In this document: piece by piece, positions 9,527 through 52,333 of the stretch | Position numbering within the stretch: position 1 is the first letter of the stretch | Layout of the letters: every line of letters begins with the position of its first letter | The notes under the pieces: model-generated | Database searches by the model: none | Told to the model about the DNA's origin: nothing | What the model saw: only the letters and a program-made list of their open reading frames with translations | From: Albimonas marina | GTDB taxonomy: Bacteria; Pseudomonadota; Alphaproteobacteria; Rhodobacterales; Rhodobacteraceae | Length of the DNA stretch: 64,000 bases | NCBI RefSeq assembly: GCF_029223255.1 | Contig: NZ_JARHUC010000007.1 | Location: 1-64,000, forward strand | Reading direction: 5' to 3' | Made by a program: the position numbers and the translations under genes

Positions 9527-9540
9527 TCCAAGGATCAATC

Positions 9541-10083
9541 GTGGAGACGAACGCGCCGAAGGCGACGCGAAACGAGACGGCCGGGGGGGAACCTCCGGCC
9601 GTCGGCCGTTCCGACGCGCCGATCTACCAGGTCACGCTGTGGCCCCACCGCTCGCTGGGCCGGCGCGGCTACGGGCTGGTGATGGGGGGGACGGCGGCGA
9701 TGCTGTCGCTGCCGATGATCCCGCTCGCCGGAAGCCGCGCCGCACTGGGGCTGCTGCCCTTCGTGGTCGCGGCGCTGGCGGCGCTGGGCTGGTTCCTGCG
9801 CCGCAACGCCCGCGACCTCTCCCTGCACGAGGAGCTGCGCCTGTGGCCGGACCTGGTGGCGGTGGAGCGCCACGAGCCCGACGGCCGCGTGCGCCGCTGG
9901 CAGGCCAACCCCCACTGGGTGCGCCTGACGCTGCACCCCCACGGGCGGCCCGAGAACTACCTGACCCTGCGCGGAAACGGCCGCGAGATCGAGCTGGGGG
10001 CCTTCCTGAGCCCGGAGGAGCGGGTGGAGCTGGCCGACCAGCTCGAGACCGCCTTCGCCCGGGCGCGCGGGGCGACGGGGTAG
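9541..10083 (+). CDS. DUF2244 membrane protein downstream of ctaD
   Basis: GTG start at 9541 with AAGGA at 9530-9534; the 180-residue frame otherwise runs back into ctaD. A proline-rich N-terminal tail is followed by YQVTLWPHRSLGRRGYGLVM, two closely spaced membrane helices at about 45-65 and 70-88, and a soluble C-terminal domain with ELRLWPDLVAVERHEPDG and WVRLTLHP. This is the DUF2244 family, usually found near cytochrome oxidase genes in alphaproteobacteria. Its job is not known; a link to oxidase assembly or stability is inference from position. It is probably co-transcribed with ctaD. Confidence 0.88.
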   Translation: METNAPKATRNETAGGEPPAVGRSDAPIYQVTLWPHRSLGRRGYGLVMGGTAAMLSLPMIPLAGSRAALGLLPFVVAALAALGWFLRRNARDLSLHEELRLWPDLVAVERHEPDGRVRRWQANPHWVRLTLHPHGRPENYLTLRGNGREIELGAFLSPEERVELADQLETAFARARGATG

Positions 10084-10202
10084 CGCACGGGCGGCGGCGA
10101 GGGGGGCCTCCGAGGCGGGGCTCGTCGGCTGGCCGCTGCGCGGGGGCGCGACGCGTGTCGCGCCCGGAAGGCCGCTTCGGGAGCTCACCAAAGAACACGG
10201 CC

Positions 10203-10363
10203 GCGCCTGTCCTTCGCAGCCGTCCGTCGCTGAAGATGCCTGAGCGAGTCGCCCGCCGGGGTCAAGGACAAGCCCCCTTCGGGGGTCGCTTCGCGATCCC
10301 TGACCCCGGCGGGCGACTCGCTCTTTTCGGCATCAGCGACGGACGGCTCCGAAGAACAGGCGC
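10203..10363. repeat. 161-bp palindromic intergenic element, copy A
   Basis: The segment is one long interrupted palindrome. The arms begin GCGCCTGT and end ACAGGCGC, and continue inward as GCCGTCCGTCGCTGA against TCAGCGACGGACGGC, GAGTCGCCCGCCGGGGTCA against TGACCCCGGCGGGCGACTC, and a central small hairpin with CCCCCTTCGGGGG. A second copy (36016-36179) in opposite orientation keeps the blocks CTGAAGATGCCTGAGCGA and GGTCAAGGACAAGCCC but changes other stem positions on both arms together. I know no named family for it. It lies between DUF2244 (plus) and a DUF6165 gene (minus), where it could end transcription from both sides. Confidence 0.8.
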
Positions 10364-10440: not shown

Positions 10441-10857
10441 TCAGTAGAGGGGGTGGGACTTCTCCTCCATCAGGCGGGAGCCGAGGAGGAGGTTGATCTC
10501 GCGCTTCAGGGCGGCGCGGCGGTCGTTGAGCCGGTAGACCGAGCGGGCCAGCGCCACGAAGCCGGGGCCGAACTCGCCCTGCGCCTCGCAGGCGCGCAGG
10601 TCGTCCTCGATCGACCACAGGTCGGCGTTCACCTCGCGCAGGGCGTCGGTGAGTTCGTCGAGCTCCGCCGGCGCGGGCAGGGCGGCGTCGCGCGCGGCCA
10701 CCAGCAGCGCCAGCTCGGTCGTCACGTTGAAGCGGCGCGACGGGTCGGCGATCCGCTCGCACTTGATCTCGAGGATGGTGATCTTGTCGATCAGCTCGCC
10801 GGGCGAGATCTCGACCTGCACGCCGATCTCGCCGCGGCCATGGATCGGAGCGCTCAC
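10441..10857 (-). CDS. DUF6165 family protein
   Basis: GTG start at 10857 forms a four-base GTGA overlap with the stop of the upstream TPR gene, which fixes the start. The 138-residue soluble protein carries the family's hallmark VEISPGELIDKITILEIKCERI (residues 15-36, quoted here in overlapping parts as ISPGELIDKITILEI) followed by helical segments with TTELALLVAARDAAL and SIEDDLRACE. Function is unknown. In many bacteria it neighbours glycosyltransferase or TPR genes, as here. Translational coupling suggests it works with the upstream TPR/glycosyltransferase-like protein. Confidence 0.85.
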   Translation of the reverse strand: MSAPIHGRGEIGVQVEISPGELIDKITILEIKCERIADPSRRFNVTTELALLVAARDAALPAPAELDELTDALREVNADLWSIEDDLRACEAQGEFGPGFVALARSVYRLNDRRAALKREINLLLGSRLMEEKSHPLY

Positions 10858-12278
10858 GGCCGGGCCCCCCGCGCGGCGGCGAGGTCGGCGAGACGCGCGG
10901 CGGCCTCCTCCAGCACGGCGTCCCAGTCGCCCGGGCGCGGCTGGCGGATCAGGCGCATCGAGGGATGCCAGGGCGTCGTCTCCCCCGCGTGGCCGTAGAG
11001 CCAGAACGGCGAGTAGGCGAGCAGGTTCCACACCGGCCGGCCCAACGCGCCGGCGAGATGGGCGACGGCGGTGTCCATGGTGATCACCAGGTCCAGCTCC
11101 CGCAGGGTGGCGGCCGTGTCGGCGAAATCCCGCTCGTCCCCCGCCGCGTCGAGGATCAGGGCGGAGGCGGCGGAGCGGCGGAACCCCTCCAGCAGCGGGC
11201 CCTTGTAGAGGCTGACCAGCTGCACGCCGGGAATGCGGGCCAGCGGCAGGAACCGCTCCGGCCCGAAGCTGCGCTTGAAATTGGCCTTGTAGGTGACCGA
11301 GCCCGACCAGCACACGCCCACCTTCAGCATCCCCTCGAACGGCTGCAGCAGCTTGCGCGCGCGCGAGCGGGAGTCGCCCGGCGGCCGCAGCCGGGGCGAG
11401 GGGGGCAGGGCGGCGGCGTCGCAGCCCAGGAAGCGGGGCAGGGCCATCATGTAGGTGACGAAATCGGCCGGCGGGCGGGGGCCGCCGATCTCCGCCAGCT
11501 CGTCCACGCCCTCGACCCCCTGGAGCAGGCGCCGGAGGGGCGGCTTCACCGCGAGGATCACGGTCCCGCCCCGCGCCTTCAGGGCGGGAAGGAAGCGGCT
11601 CATCAGGAGGGTGTCGCCGAAGCCCTGCTCGGGCAGGACCAGGATGCGCCGGCCCTCCAGCGGCTCGCCGGCCCATTCGGGCTCGGGGTTCTCGCCCTTG
11701 GCGATCTCGCCGATCTCCCAGCGGGCCTCGAAGGCGTCGAAGCCGCGGGCGTAGTCGCCGGCGGCGAGCAGCGCCATGGCGCGCTGCACGCGCAGCTCGC
11801 CGTCGGCGGGATGCAGGGCGAGGCCGGCCTCGGCCGTGTCCCGCGCCTCCTCGAAGCGGCCCAGCGCGCGCAGGGTGACGGCGAGCATGGCGTGGGCGTC
11901 GGCGTCCCCGGGGCGGCGGGCCAGCACCTCGCGGCGGATCTCCAGCGCCTCCTCCAGCAGGTCGGCGTCCTGGAGCGCGTTGCCCAGGTTGTTGAGGATC
12001 GCGGCGTCCCCGGGCGCCAGCGCCTGGGCGCGGCGCTGGCAGGCGGCGGCGGCCTGGTGCTCCCCCCGCCGGCGCAGCAGGGCGCCGAGGTTGGTCCAGA
12101 TCCCCGAATCCCGCGGGCGCTGGCGCAGGTAGGCGCGGTAGGCGGCGAAGGCGGCGTCGAGATCGCCGGCGCGCTGGCGGTCGATTCCCAGCGCCCGCAG
12201 CTCCCCCAGCGTGCGCGGCGCCGGGGCGGCGCCCGGGGGCGGGGCGGCCTCCTGGGCCTGACCGGTGCTCTGCGCCAT
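10854..12278 (-). CDS. TPR protein with C-terminal glycosyltransferase-like domain
   Basis: ATG at 12278 has a strong GGAGGGAGAG upstream; longer readings run into unrelated sequence. The 474-residue protein has about five TPR units between residues 35 and 190 (for example GIWTNLGALLRRRGEH and ILNNLGNALQDADLLEEA), then a domain with ILVLPEQGFGDTLLMSRF, VGVCWSGS, LVSLYKGP and LVITMDTAVAHLAGALGRP. The last motif is that of glycosyltransferase family 9-like (ADP-heptose transferase fold) proteins. This architecture occurs widely as TPR-containing glycosyltransferases linked to surface polysaccharide or flagellin modification; the acceptor here is unknown. No signal peptide is seen, so it is cytoplasmic. 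Coupled to the DUF6165 gene. Confidence 0.85.
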   Translation of the reverse strand: MAQSTGQAQEAAPPPGAAPAPRTLGELRALGIDRQRAGDLDAAFAAYRAYLRQRPRDSGIWTNLGALLRRRGEHQAAAACQRRAQALAPGDAAILNNLGNALQDADLLEEALEIRREVLARRPGDADAHAMLAVTLRALGRFEEARDTAEAGLALHPADGELRVQRAMALLAAGDYARGFDAFEARWEIGEIAKGENPEPEWAGEPLEGRRILVLPEQGFGDTLLMSRFLPALKARGGTVILAVKPPLRRLLQGVEGVDELAEIGGPRPPADFVTYMMALPRFLGCDAAALPPSPRLRPPGDSRSRARKLLQPFEGMLKVGVCWSGSVTYKANFKRSFGPERFLPLARIPGVQLVSLYKGPLLEGFRRSAASALILDAAGDERDFADTAATLRELDLVITMDTAVAHLAGALGRPVWNLLAYSPFWLYGHAGETTPWHPSMRLIRQPRPGDWDAVLEEAAARLADLAAARGARP

Positions 12279-24719: not shown

Positions 24720-25131
24720 CAGTTTGCGGATGACGTCGATCTCGAAGGCTCCGGGAGCGGTGTGGCGCGCGGGGGGCGCGGGCAGGGCGGGCAGGGCGCC
24801 CGCGCGCCGGGCGGGCTGCGGCGCGAGGATAGGCGCCCGCGCCGCCCCCCGCCAGTCCCGCGGCCCCCGCCCGCGCGGACCCGCCGCCGCAGGCGCCGCC
24901 CGGCACCTTCCAGCCCCACGCACCGGATGCCTCCGCGGCGGCGGCCGTCATCGGCGCGCTGATGGACGGTTCAGGGAAGACGCCGCGACCCGCCCCTCGG
25001 CCGGAGGGTCCGCGCCGCGCGACCCGGCGGGAGACGCCGGGCCCGGGCGCCGCATCCGCCGCGCGCCGCGGGCGGGCGGGCCGGGCCGGGCGCGCGGCCT
25101 GCCGCGGCGCCTCCGGTCCGACCGCGGGGTC
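24720..25131. other. GC-rich intergenic region
   Basis: A 412-bp stretch with extreme GC. No protein gene is supported on either strand; the frames across it read as Arg/Ala/Pro/Gly-rich noise. It contains the promoter of the ABC gene and, at 25063-25110, a hairpin behind the SDR gene that closely resembles one at 52267-52313. Confidence 0.45.
25063..25110 (-). terminator. GC hairpin behind the SDR gene
   Basis: GCGCCGCGGGCGGGCGG (25063-25079) and CTGCCGCGGCGC (ending 25110) can pair around a CCGGGCCGGGCGCGCGG loop, with a small bulge. Nearly the same 50-base wording occurs at 52267-52313, also just behind a minus-strand gene. It could be a shared terminator or a short dispersed palindrome. 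Confidence 0.45.
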
Positions 25132-33709: not shown

Positions 33710-35968
33710 ATGAGCCGACTCCCCGACAAAGACACCCTCGCCGACTACATTCGCCAGAACCCCGACAAGGCCGGCAAGCGCGACCTCGCGCGCGCCTTCG
33801 GCCTGAAGGGGGTGGAGCGCGTGCAGCTCAAGGACCTGCTGCGCGAGCTGACCGACGAAGGCGTGATCGAGAAGCGCCCGGGCAAGAGCTTCGGCGCCCC
33901 CGGCCACCTGCCTCCCGTGGCGGTGCTGGTGGTGGGCGAGCCCGACCACAACGGCGACCTCTTCGCCACGCCCCAGGACTGGGACCGGGACGATCCCGCG
34001 CCCAAGGTCCTGATCCTGCCCGGCTCGCGCGGCCCCGCGCCGGGCCCCGGCGACCGGCTGCTGACCCGCGTCACCCCGGTGCATGGCGAGGATCATCACT
34101 ACACCGGCAAGGTCATCAAGAAGATCGGCTCCGGCCCCCGCAAGATCCTTGGAATTTTCCGCCGCGCGCCCGACGGCGGCGGGCGGCTGGTTCCCGTCTC
34201 GAAGGGCGACCAGCGCGAGTGGATCATCGCCGCCCGCGACGCCGACGAGGCCGAAAACGGAGAGCTGGTGGAGGCCGAGCAGATCGGCCAGATCCGCCGC
34301 AACCGCGACTTGGCGCTGCCCCGCGCCCGGGTGGTGGGCAAGCTGGGCTCGCCGGGCTCCGCGCGCAGCTTCTCCCTGATCGCGATCCATGAGCAGGGCA
34401 TCCCCGACGCCTTCCCCGAGCGCGTGACCGAGGCCGCCGCCGCCGCCGAGCCGGTGACCTCGCTGAAGGGCCGCGAGGACCTGCGCCACCTGCCGCTGGT
34501 CACCATCGACCCGGCCGACGCGCGCGACCATGACGACGCCGTCTGCGCGCTGCCCGACGAGGACCCGGAGAACCCGGGCGGCCATGTCGTCTGGGTCGCC
34601 ATCGCCGACGTCGCCCATTACGTGCGCCCCGGCTCGCCGCTCGACCGCGAGGCGCGGCTGCGCGGCAACTCCACCTACTTCCCCGACCGCGTCGTGCCGA
34701 TGCTGCCCGAGGAGCTTTCCGCCAATCTTTGCTCGCTGGTCGAGGGCGAAGACCGCCCCTGCATCGCGCTGCGCATGGTGCTGGCAGAGGACGGGACCAA
34801 GCGCGCCCACGACTTCCACCGCGGCCTGATGCGCTCCCCCGCCTCGCTGACCTACGAGCGGGTGCAGGCCGCCGCCGACGGCCGCCCGGACGCGGAGATC
34901 GAGCCGCACCTGCGCACGATCGCCGACCTCTACGCCGCCTACGACAGCGCGGCGAAGGCGCGGGAGCGTCGCCAGCCCCTCGACCTCGACCTGCCGGAGC
35001 GGCGGATCAAGCTGGCGGAGGACGGGACCGTCGCCTCCATCGGCTTCCGCGACCGGCTCGAGGCGCACCGGCTGATCGAGGAGTTCATGATCCTCGCCAA
35101 CGTTTGCGCCGCCGAGACGCTGGAGGCCAAGCGCCGCCCGCTCCTGTTCCGCGTCCACGAGGAGCCCGGCCAGGACAAGCTCGACACGCTGCGCGACGTG
35201 GCCGAGGGCTGCGGGCTGACGCTGTCGAAGTCCCAGGTCATCCGCCCGGCGCTGTTCAACCGGCTGCTGCACCAGGCCGCCGGCTCCGACTTCGCCGAGC
35301 TGATCAACCTCACCGTCCTGCGCTCCCAGACCCAGGCCTACTATTCGCCCGACAACCTCGGGCACTTCGGCCTGAACCTGCGCGCCTACGCCCACTTCAC
35401 CTCGCCGATCCGCCGCTACGCCGACCTCGTCGTCCACCGCGCCCTGATCGCCGCCCACGACTGGGGGCGCGACGGCCAGACCGGCGAGGAGATCGAGGAC
35501 CTCAAGGACACCGCCGAGCACATCTCCTTCACCGAGCGTCGCTCGATGACCGCCGAGCGGGACACCAACGACCGCTACCTCGCCGCCTACCTGCAGGACC
35601 GGGTGGGCAACGAGTTCGCGGGCCGCGTCTCGGGCGTGGCGCGCTTCGGCCTCTTCGTGAAGCTCGACGAGACCGGCGCCGACGGCCTGATCCCGATCGC
35701 GAGCCTGGGGCGGGAGTGGTTCCGCCACGACCCCGAGACCCACACCCTGACCGGCGAGACCTCCGGCCGGGTGATCGCCATGGGCCAGCGCTGCCTGGTG
35801 CGCCTCGCCGAGGCCGTGCCCGTGACCGGCGGCCTGCTGCTGGAGCTCCTCGAGATCGAGGGCGAGGGCGCCCCGGCCCCGTCGCGCCGCAGGCAGCCCG
35901 CCCGCAAGAAGCTCTCGTCGGCCTCCAAGGCCCGCGCCAAGCACGCCCGCAAGAAGCGCCGCGGCTGA
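33710..35968 (+). CDS. rnr: Ribonuclease R
   Basis: The 752-residue 3'-to-5' exoribonuclease degrades structured RNA. Domains in order: N-terminal helix-turn-helix RDLARAFGLKGVERVQLKDL, cold-shock domains (about 70-240), the RNB catalytic domain starting LVTIDPADARDHDDAVCAL with the Mg2+-binding aspartates, HFTSPIRRYADLVVHR near 565, and an S1 domain GRVSGVARFGLFVKLDETGA. A lysine/arginine-rich tail (ARKKLSSASKARAKHARKK) closes it. Length and layout are normal for the family. In many alphaproteobacteria topA and rnr are close together, as here, although a hydrolase-like gene stands between. Confidence 0.96.
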   Translation: MSRLPDKDTLADYIRQNPDKAGKRDLARAFGLKGVERVQLKDLLRELTDEGVIEKRPGKSFGAPGHLPPVAVLVVGEPDHNGDLFATPQDWDRDDPAPKVLILPGSRGPAPGPGDRLLTRVTPVHGEDHHYTGKVIKKIGSGPRKILGIFRRAPDGGGRLVPVSKGDQREWIIAARDADEAENGELVEAEQIGQIRRNRDLALPRARVVGKLGSPGSARSFSLIAIHEQGIPDAFPERVTEAAAAAEPVTSLKGREDLRHLPLVTIDPADARDHDDAVCALPDEDPENPGGHVVWVAIADVAHYVRPGSPLDREARLRGNSTYFPDRVVPMLPEELSANLCSLVEGEDRPCIALRMVLAEDGTKRAHDFHRGLMRSPASLTYERVQAAADGRPDAEIEPHLRTIADLYAAYDSAAKARERRQPLDLDLPERRIKLAEDGTVASIGFRDRLEAHRLIEEFMILANVCAAETLEAKRRPLLFRVHEEPGQDKLDTLRDVAEGCGLTLSKSQVIRPALFNRLLHQAAGSDFAELINLTVLRSQTQAYYSPDNLGHFGLNLRAYAHFTSPIRRYADLVVHRALIAAHDWGRDGQTGEEIEDLKDTAEHISFTERRSMTAERDTNDRYLAAYLQDRVGNEFAGRVSGVARFGLFVKLDETGADGLIPIASLGREWFRHDPETHTLTGETSGRVIAMGQRCLVRLAEAVPVTGGLLLELLEIEGEGAPAPSRRRQPARKKLSSASKARAKHARKKRRG

Positions 35969-36015: not shown

Positions 36016-36179
36016 GCGCCTGTTTCCCGGAGCCGTCTCTCGCTGATGCCGATCAGAGCGACTCGGCCGGAGGGGTCAGGGATCGCGCAGCGACCCGCGC
36101 TTGCGCGGGCTTGTCCTTGACCCCTCCGGCCGAGTCGCTCAGGCATCTTCAGCGAGAGACGGATCCGGGAAACAGGCGC
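36016..36179. repeat. 164-bp palindromic intergenic element, copy B
   Basis: Arms begin GCGCCTGTTTCCCGG and end CCGGGAAACAGGCGC. Moving inward, GTCTCTCGCTGA pairs with TCAGCGAGAGAC, GAGCGACTCGGCCGG with CCGGCCGAGTCGCTC, AGGGGTCA with TGACCCCT, and a central hairpin CCCGCGCTTGCGCGGG. Compared with copy A (10203-10363, opposite orientation), the blocks CTGAAGATGCCTGAGCGA, GGTCAAGGACAAGCCC and CGCGATCCCTGACC are shared, while stem bases between them differ on both sides in a pairing-preserving way. It follows rnr and precedes a GST gene. Confidence 0.8.
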
Positions 36180-36341
36180 GCCCCCTGTTTCCGGGTGAGT
36201 CAGGAGCGTCCTCCCCCCCTCACCCATCGAAGCGCCCCCCAAGCCGCATCCCCAAGCCCGCCCGCAGGGCGCCTCCGTCCCCGGTTTCCTTTCGCCGCCC
36301 CGACGGGCAATGTCGCGGCCAAACCAACCGGGAGGATTCAC

Positions 36342-42585: not shown

Positions 42586-43071
42586 TCAGGGGCGGATCAG
42601 GACCTCGCCCTCGATCTCCATCGCGAAGCCCAGCGGCAGTCCGGCGACGCCGACGGCCGAGCGGGCGTGGCGGCCGACCTCGGGCCCGAAGACGTCGATC
42701 AGCAGGTCGGAGAAGCCATTCGCCACCAGGTGCTGCTCGGCGTAGCCGGGGGCCGAGGTCACCATGGCGAAGACCCGGACCCAGCCGGTCACGCGGCTCA
42801 GCTCCCCGATCTCGGCCTTCAGGTTGGCGAGGACCGAGAGGCCGATGCCCTTCGCCTCGGCGTAGCCCTCCGCCGTGGTCAGGCCCGCGCCGAAGACCCC
42901 GTAGGGGCCGGCCAGCGACCCGTCCGCCGCCTGCCGGGCGTGACCCGAGACCACCGCCCGGTCGCCGCGCAGGTTGATGAACGTGAAGGGCAGGTGGACC
43001 CCCGGCGGGCGGACCACCGGCGCAGGCAGTTCCAGCCCCAGGTCCGCGAGCCTGTCTTCCGGCGTCGCCAT
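42586..43071 (-). CDS. RidA/YjgF family protein
   Basis: ATG at 43071 with GGGAGGGG upstream; 161 residues, longer than the 130-residue E. coli RidA and of the YjgF subgroup common in Rhodobacterales. Features: PFTFINLRGDRAVVSGHARQ, TTAEGYAEAKGIGLSVLANLK (read in parts), VRVFAMVTSAPGYAEQHLV and the end ARSAVGVAGLPLGFAMEIEGE. RidA proteins hydrolyse reactive imine/enamine intermediates; in this subgroup the conserved Arg near the end is replaced, so activity is unproven. Single gene. Confidence 0.9.
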   Translation of the reverse strand: MATPEDRLADLGLELPAPVVRPPGVHLPFTFINLRGDRAVVSGHARQAADGSLAGPYGVFGAGLTTAEGYAEAKGIGLSVLANLKAEIGELSRVTGWVRVFAMVTSAPGYAEQHLVANGFSDLLIDVFGPEVGRHARSAVGVAGLPLGFAMEIEGEVLIRP

Positions 43072-52040: not shown

Positions 52041-52333
52041 CGTCGCCCTCCCATGGCGCACGAAAAGGCGTCCACGTCTGTGCGCGGATCGGAGGCGCAC
52101 GCTAACGACGCGGCCGGACCGGGTCAATCGGTCCACCGAGGCCGCTTGCGCGACATAGTTTCGCCCTGCGGAACCGCAGGGGCGCGGGCCGACGCCGGGC
52201 GCCGCGAGGGATTCGGCCGCGCCGCGCGCCGCGGGAGACGGCGCCGGCGGGCGGCCCGCCAGCCCCGCGCCGCGGGCGGGCGGCCGGGCCGGGCGCGCCG
52301 CCCGCCGCGGCGCCTCCCGCGGCTAGGCCGGGC
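52041..52333. other. Upstream region of the ligase-TRAP operon
   Basis: A 293-bp gap. The right part holds a hairpin behind the cyclase gene (52267-52313). The left part must carry the promoter of the ligase-TRAP operon; GCGCACG and CGCAAGCGGC stretches are visible but no clear operator. No gene is seen. Confidence 0.4.
52267..52313 (-). terminator. GC hairpin behind the cyclase gene
   Basis: GCGCCGCGGGCGGGCGG (52267-52283) pairs with CCGCCCGCCGCGGCGC (52298-52313) with one bulged G, a 16-bp stem around CCGGGCCGGGCGCG. It lies behind the minus-strand cyclase gene. A near copy sits at 25063-25110 in the same position relative to the SDR gene. Confidence 0.55.

Follow-up and report, generated by a model that had tools for sequence, protein, structure and literature searches.

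Long intergenic hairpin repeats of Albimonas marina keep their pairing and mostly their sites while evolving in concert, probably as RNA elements between convergent genes

Hairpin-forming repeats in the intergenic DNA of bacteria are best known as REPs, which are moved by a domesticated transposase. Other elements of related form include ERIC/IRU, long intergenic palindromes that are transcribed with neighbouring genes, and the attC sites of integrons, which combine a hypervariable sequence with a conserved hairpin and one functional strand. The title of a 1988 review by Higgins et al., cited in PMC2267715, reportedly poses the question of whether REP evolution proceeds by gene conversion. In the parts of the published accounts available to us, REPs are 20-40 nt units with a GTAG or CGTC foot, the CGTC class having stems of 8-9 bp, loops of 4-5 nt, an unpaired CGTC and a CCA-like tail (PMC3733652); ERIC/IRU of enterobacteria are named (PMC5082802 and PMC2267715); and Br-REP1 of Bradyrhizobium was found, with RNA data, in overlapping 3'-UTRs of convergent genes (PMC5082802). 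The available parts of the work on REPINs, CGTC REPs, Bradyrhizobium REPs and stem-loops (PMC8049555, PMC3733652, PMC5082802 and PMC2267715) hold no description of the family reported here; most subscription papers lay outside the scope of this comparison.

We analysed a 64,000-nucleotide stretch of the Albimonas marina genome (the window), in which a first-pass annotation had pointed out two related intergenic palindromes with covarying stems. Both lie where it placed them, at 10203-10363 (copy 1) and 36016-36179 (copy 2), and fold nearly end to end, with fold z-scores of -14.2 and -16.3, respectively, and none of 200 shuffles as stable; the blocks of identity between the two copies are real, and so are the stem differences that affect both sides. 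The ends needed partial revision: the core was correctly delimited, but the conserved unit extends past one side, spanning about 10174-10363 and 36016-36207. BLAST revealed further copies in the genome, and all of the best 40 of 180 candidates matched the full 161 bases. Variable stem positions kept their pairing in an alignment of 31 copies (A2), in which 10 of 62 pairs were changed on both sides. A covariance model built from that alignment (R1) scored copy 1 at 187 bits and copy 2 at 176 bits, and located at least 136 distinct places in A. marina (genome G000) and at least 144 in a sister species (G001), as counted from the best 150 matches per genome after merging strands and dropping one weak match in each (35.9 bits in G000, 48.4 bits in G001). 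An exact pattern occurred 89 times forward and 70 times in reverse in A. marina, 98 and 75 times in the sister species, and not at all in the control. The original observation is thus confirmed, and the family is larger than it had indicated. We fetched 132 copies from A. marina and 140 from the sister species (272 in all; 8 of the 280 distinct places were left out). A further weak R1 match in the window (42676-42760, minus strand, E 0.01) was judged to be due to chance; it has no long hairpin and, by eye, lies inside coding sequence. The window also contains a 36-nt GC-rich repeat (family D9; 25079-25114 and 52282-52317, 94% identity) that is separate from the hairpin element.

In a third species of the genus (G002), R1 had no match among the best 47 of 7278 candidates. 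At the site of copy 1, this species carries a 12-nt remnant, GATGCCTGAGCG, which occurs nowhere else in its genome and suggests that an element was once present there and then decayed. At the rnr site, which holds copy 2 in A. marina, we saw no trace of an element; the site is rearranged, and its far side maps elsewhere.

Beyond the genus, the exact pattern matched 6 of 394 Rhodobacteraceae genomes, and a version allowing a longer gap recovered six stretches from GTDB contigs (Pseudoroseicyclus tamaricis, a MAG (four) and an uncultured Rhodobacteraceae), whose loci have the skeleton of the window copies and a different stem sequence. Most of the superfamily escapes exact patterns, as became clear from a second model (R2) built from an alignment of 11 loci with the same skeleton (A3). 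Considering the best six candidates per genome, R2 matched 43 of the 394 genomes at E ≤0.001, and 36 of them (35 genera) below 1e-9; four of the weakest (G267, G233, G189 and G230) matched over model positions ~66-126 only, which is the apical hairpin alone. When the best 150 candidates were taken, all 12 of 12 chosen genomes matched, with at least 16 distinct places in G022 and at least 19 in G276, and low-copy genomes also kept the structure. Across the class, the exact pattern found A. marina alone among 385 genomes. A plasmid search with a window copy as query gave two matches, one being a single element in Acuticoccus (order Hyphomicrobiales) that covered 71% of the query and the other a 59-base apical stretch only, in Bradyrhizobium; three further loci used as queries (L261, L250 and L266) gave no plasmid match. 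On plasmid p1 of Bradyrhizobium sp. 62B (L249, 501-659), the hairpin carries the apical words GTCAAGG.CAAGCCC..GGGTCGCTTCGCGA.CCTTGAC, is without outer arms and adjoins an ISNCY transposase gene; the apex may be a separate repeat that is more widely spread. Phage records gave no match, and no stretch of the viral contigs contained the exact pattern. A search of the 64-kb window against Rfam at the gathering score returned two tRNAs only and no match to the elements, and five superfamily loci had no Rfam match at E up to 0.5.

The unit begins with the motif GCTYCnGgACTCACC, followed by a short arm a0, an arm a' and a conserved outer stem (CCGTCnnTCGC/GCGAnnGACGG). It continues through an asymmetric internal loop and a hypervariable paired stem of ~15 bp to an apical part, composed of conserved islands and a variable terminal hairpin, and closes with the 3' arms, which end in arm a. 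Arms a0 and a are direct repeats, and either can pair with a'. The core of copy 1 (10203-10363), supported by its fold z-score and R1 score, most likely functions on the minus strand, as judged from the mismatch asymmetry described below. Its boundary motif, GCTTCGGGAGCTCACC (GGTGAGCTCCCGAAGC on the functional strand), lies at 10174-10189 and is seen in superfamily loci; the adjoining third outer-arm copy, a0 (10190-10199), should be able to pair with a' in place of the right arm a, according to the alignments and a modest pairing test. The left and right arms of the hypervariable stem block occupy 10248-10262 and 10303-10317, and the apical part, at 10273-10299, is a variable terminal hairpin adjoining conserved GGTCGCTTCGCGATCC. 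Copy 2, with its core at 36016-36179 (supported by fold z-score and R1 score), has the plus strand as likely functional strand and the minus strand as family orientation; the third arm copy and boundary motif (CCTGTTTCCGGGTGAGTCAGGAGC on the plus strand) are placed at 36184-36207 by sequence and family alignment. The CACC of the boundary is kept in 50 of 51 superfamily loci, 130 of 132 A. marina copies and 138 of 140 copies of the sister species. The stem block could be parsed in all but 21 of the 272 copies and is highly polymorphic, with 38 alleles among 119 parsed copies in A. marina and 49 among 132 in the sister species; its two arms pair with no more than one mismatch in 110 of the 119 and 126 of the 132, respectively.

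When the functional strand is considered, a' and a0 can pair with each other into a short local hairpin, which is incompatible with the outer end of the long hairpin. Pairing between a locus's own arms (-9.8 kcal/mol) was stronger than with the arms of other loci (-7.5 kcal/mol), with a locus's own arm being the best partner in only 7 of 50 cases (one of the 51 loci, which lacks CACC, and four of the 272 copies were left out of this test of alternative hairpin and boundary). The element could possibly switch between the long hairpin and the short one. A subgroup of copies has had the whole inner stem replaced and carries GAGCCGCGG.., GAGCCCCGCC.. or GAGCTGCGGC.. instead of GAGCGASTCG (C16:154813, C16:202334, C19:238425, C22:165857 and C16:293836 in G000; C28:542, C37:428262 and C31:407930 in G001); by eye, these stems are still largely paired.

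The first-pass annotation had read the covarying stems as a sign of selection on a structure, and two-sided stem changes support that reading. Over 50 consensus pairs in the 272 copies, 96.4% of the cells are Watson-Crick, 2.1% G.U and 1.3% mismatched. The 11 loci of A3 show two-sided changes at 38 of 60 pairs with 90.1% of cells paired, which none of 500 shuffles reached, and sliding the partner by 1-3 columns brought the paired fraction to 32-49%. We also aligned 51 wider loci, from 28 other genomes and Acuticoccus, keeping the best strand of each locus and dropping 51 of 102 rows as the second strand. This alignment was fitted to the model and is therefore biased towards the structure; it contained 2562 Watson-Crick cells (85%) compared to a shuffled maximum of 1911, along with 280 mismatches other than A.C or G.T, and at least two Watson-Crick types occurred at 41 of 60 pairs and at least three at 28. 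Among the closest copies (identity of at least 0.96), one-sided pair differences exceeded two-sided ones (41 versus 25 and 24 versus 10), as expected of ordinary mutation. The two-sided changes indicate that the pairing is under selection.

A base pair that loses one side by transition appears as G.T on one strand and as A.C on the other. On the strand written out in the first-pass annotation, the 272 copies contain 93 A.C against 13 G.T mismatches (57 against 13 without column 52/124; 19 against 7 columns), as well as 90 other, strand-neutral mismatches, and the 51 wider loci contain 130 A.C against 34 G.T (28 against 11 columns). One apical pair (columns 92/108) is G.T on that strand in 272 of 272 copies; this constant pair counts against the strand we chose and was omitted from the asymmetry count. 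The complement folded better in 249 of the 272 copies and in all 51 wider loci, while flanking DNA of equal length went the opposite way (65 of 272). Given the excess of A.C over G.T and the better fold of the complement, the complement is most likely the strand of the selected structure; the annotation appears to have written out the opposite strand. DNA folding parameters favour the same strand as RNA parameters, so that a function as RNA and one as single-stranded DNA are equally allowed. Covariation beyond control and strand asymmetry of the exceptions, as looked for in a structured RNA, are both found in this family, and the suggestion of a structured RNA is plausible.

None of the 272 copies overlaps a gene predicted by our codon-usage script, and most elements sit directly downstream of a gene end. 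Copy 1 is preceded on its functional strand by a gene for a DUF6165 protein (10441-10860, minus strand), which is convergent with a gene for a DUF2244 membrane protein (9535-10083, plus strand; both ORF starts are provisional), and copy 2 is preceded in sense by an RNase R-like gene with RNB, S1 and CSD2 domains (33710-35968, plus strand). Using a purpose-written gene finder on the longer fetched segments only, we classified 184 element-bearing intergenic regions as 69 convergent, 9 divergent and 106 tandem, compared to 20, 94 and 144 of the element-free intergenic regions of at least 100 bp (odds ratio for convergent versus divergent 36, p 1.5e-23). Between tandem genes, the elements had no significant orientation bias (40 versus 30; 45 versus 33).

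Past the long hairpin, no run of five T residues occurred within 40 nt on either strand in any of the 272 copies. A terminator scan identified one apical site per window copy (0.1 and 0.4 expected), each of them on the functional strand, where the terminal hairpin is followed by CTTGTCCTTG (within 10273-10299 in copy 1; 36094-36119, plus strand, in copy 2). In our own version of the scan, 121 of 132 A. marina copies and 101 of 140 sister-species copies contain such a site on the functional strand, compared to 1 and 0 copies on the other strand and 13 of 396 and 2 of 420 shuffles; these counts come from copies that are not independent and from a weak T-run. The 51 wider loci had 8 sites on one strand versus 7 on the other, and hence no preference. 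We regard the apical site, which resembles an intrinsic terminator, as a lead only.

At 88 of the 132 fetched A. marina copies, both flanks match those of a sister-species copy in the same orientation. Opposite orientation was seen in two pairs, both in one local inversion, and for 44 of the 132, none of the 140 copies fetched from the sister species matched at both flanks. Spacing to the left gene is kept at the shared sites (Spearman 0.77, median difference 14 nt), as is that to the right gene to a lesser degree (0.56, 41 nt), and neighbour orientation agrees at 85 of 88. The cores themselves do not follow the sites. Orthologous copies are hardly more alike (0.814) than random cross-species pairs (0.805). 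Of the 88 A. marina copies, 1 has its true orthologue as best match, and 87 have a paralogue that is closer, the mean best-paralogue identity being 0.951 and 0.938 in the two species. Trees of the 272 copies required 23 (whole element), 39 (outer part) and 19 (inner part) changes of species label, compared to ~91 after shuffling, and placed 1, 3 and 0 of the 88 orthologous pairs as sister tips. Copies are thus alike by species and not by site, which is concerted evolution in place; the first-pass annotation had missed this homogenisation within genomes. What site signal remains is found chiefly in outer stem pairs (0.18-0.58 at columns 11/164, 23/152 and 24/151; 0.21 at column 146) and is near zero in inner-stem columns (about -0.11 to 0.13). 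In the intergenic DNA beside the elements it is also mostly gone (0.03-0.09), so that loss of signal alone is no proof of exchange, and the grouping by species is decisive.

Only 4 alleles of the 15-nt hypervariable stem block are common to the two species, and identical blocks recur at up to 22 sites in A. marina and 24 in the sister species. The left and right inner arms are tightly linked (z 22-30), the apex between them is weakly linked (z 5-9), and one stem block occurs with several apices, such that modules reassort between copies. This pattern is explained equally well by linear conversion with later removal of mismatched arms and by exchange in hairpin register. Several sites also differ in their flanks. 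The flanks of C17:550150 in G000 match two G001 copies (C26:57966 and C26:66088), as do those of C17:669647 (C32:456252 and C32:464644); the G000 pair C12:166391/C12:407434 has swapped flanks relative to G001 C36:379507/C36:518308; and inverted copies less than 1 kb apart (G000 C16:802523-803502; G001 C18:55273-56293) lie on either side of a segment whose orientation differs between the species. These flank exchanges and the inversion appear to be rearrangements with breakpoints at the copies, as recombination between copies would make.

The explanation that we favour, with a probability of roughly 0.55, is that the family is a structured repeat of 3' ends that probably works as RNA between convergent genes, remains mostly at fixed sites and is kept alike through ectopic gene conversion. 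The functional form would be an RNA hairpin at transcript 3' ends, where it might serve in termination at the apex, protection of mRNA ends, insulation between convergent genes, or processing. The palindrome would be the centre of conversion; a break or a stalled fork at an extruded hairpin, for instance, could be repaired from another copy, with selection or hairpin-templated repair then clearing mismatched arms.

Alternatively, by analogy, the complement could fold as single-stranded DNA during replication or repair and be the substrate of a putative enzyme by which hairpins are copied or exchanged from site to site. RAYT acts in this way on REPINs, and integrase on attC. The strand preference, which holds with DNA parameters, would suit such a substrate, as would a module exchange that fits hairpin register, a site signal that is lowest in the inner palindrome, and the conserved CTCACC boundary. 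Against it, the structure is kept in low-copy genomes too, and no candidate enzyme was found: the RAYT/Y1 transposase family PF01797 was present in 0 of 9 genomes, including both species, while 5 of 14 control genomes were positive. We consider this substrate unlikely. A more speculative reading, to which we give somewhat less credence again, is that a dedicated system exchanges hairpin modules among the ~140 sites, with a folded single strand as intermediate (either RNA-templated or as single-stranded DNA), such that the two arms of a stem are copied together while apex and site stay in place. The family would then be a self-editing repeat population that works without a REP transposase.

The first-pass annotation had offered a MITE-like or REP-like element as well as a structured RNA. 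A REP-like intergenic repeat is borne out by the data, while a moving MITE does not fit them well. High copy number, close similarity within each genome and the 44 A. marina copies without a two-flank partner could be explained if a MITE-like element were still transposing and re-using old sites. However, the 88 shared sites keep one orientation, the two exceptions belonging to a single inversion, and gene spacing is kept. No parent element was seen, PF01797 being the transposase family searched, and by eye we noticed no target duplication in the aligned flanks. Ongoing transposition is improbable. We think even less of the idea that the hairpin is incidental and that duplex DNA is what a chromosome-organising protein or gyrase recognises, as has been suggested for BIMEs; the position between convergent genes and the conserved islands at boundary and apex would suit such a site, but the one-strand preference and the two-sided changes are left without a reason. 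Finally, each site might carry a structured RNA that acquires compensatory changes on its own, with no exchange between copies. This would account for the covariation, the asymmetric exceptions and the mostly one-sided differences of the closest copies, but is very improbable: the species grouping in the trees already contradicts it, and paralogues closer than the orthologue and identical blocks at more than 20 sites also speak against it.

If the preferred reading is correct and the element acts as RNA, it would be a common 3'-end element of the lineage; in any case it is a large structured repeat class without an Rfam match. The 88 matched sites allow the old gene-conversion idea of repeat evolution to be measured: the proposed homogenising process is the one in the hypothesis of Higgins et al., here examined at shared sites. 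Hypervariable sequence, a conserved hairpin and one functional strand also recall attC sites, although the elements seen here are not part of arrays or cassettes. As far as the description goes, they resemble ERIC/IRU in being long intergenic palindromes, and belong to a different lineage. Br-REP1 and Br-REP2 are likewise alphaproteobacterial repeats, but, in the available part of the account, differ in sequence and are short, with palindromes of about 20 and 40 nt (PMC5082802). CGTC REPs, as far as the accessible description goes, share with our family an alphaproteobacterial host, palindromic form and the lack of a dedicated transposase (PMC3733652), but here CGTC is paired within a hairpin stem of ~60 pairs, which sets these elements apart from that class. 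The REPIN/REP and RAYT system, in the available part of its description, similarly comprises intergenic hairpin populations long kept in bacterial genomes (PMC8049555). REPs are RAYT-linked units of 20-40 nt, with an unpaired GTAG foot, whereas the elements here measure 161-190 nt, are bounded by CTCACC, occur in genomes among which no RAYT was found in nine, and stay at shared sites while their sequences homogenise. As intergenic palindromes, then, they are ordinary in kind; what is unusual is their size, the strand-specific covariation seen in many genera and a clear concerted evolution at sites common to two species, with no REP transposase found.
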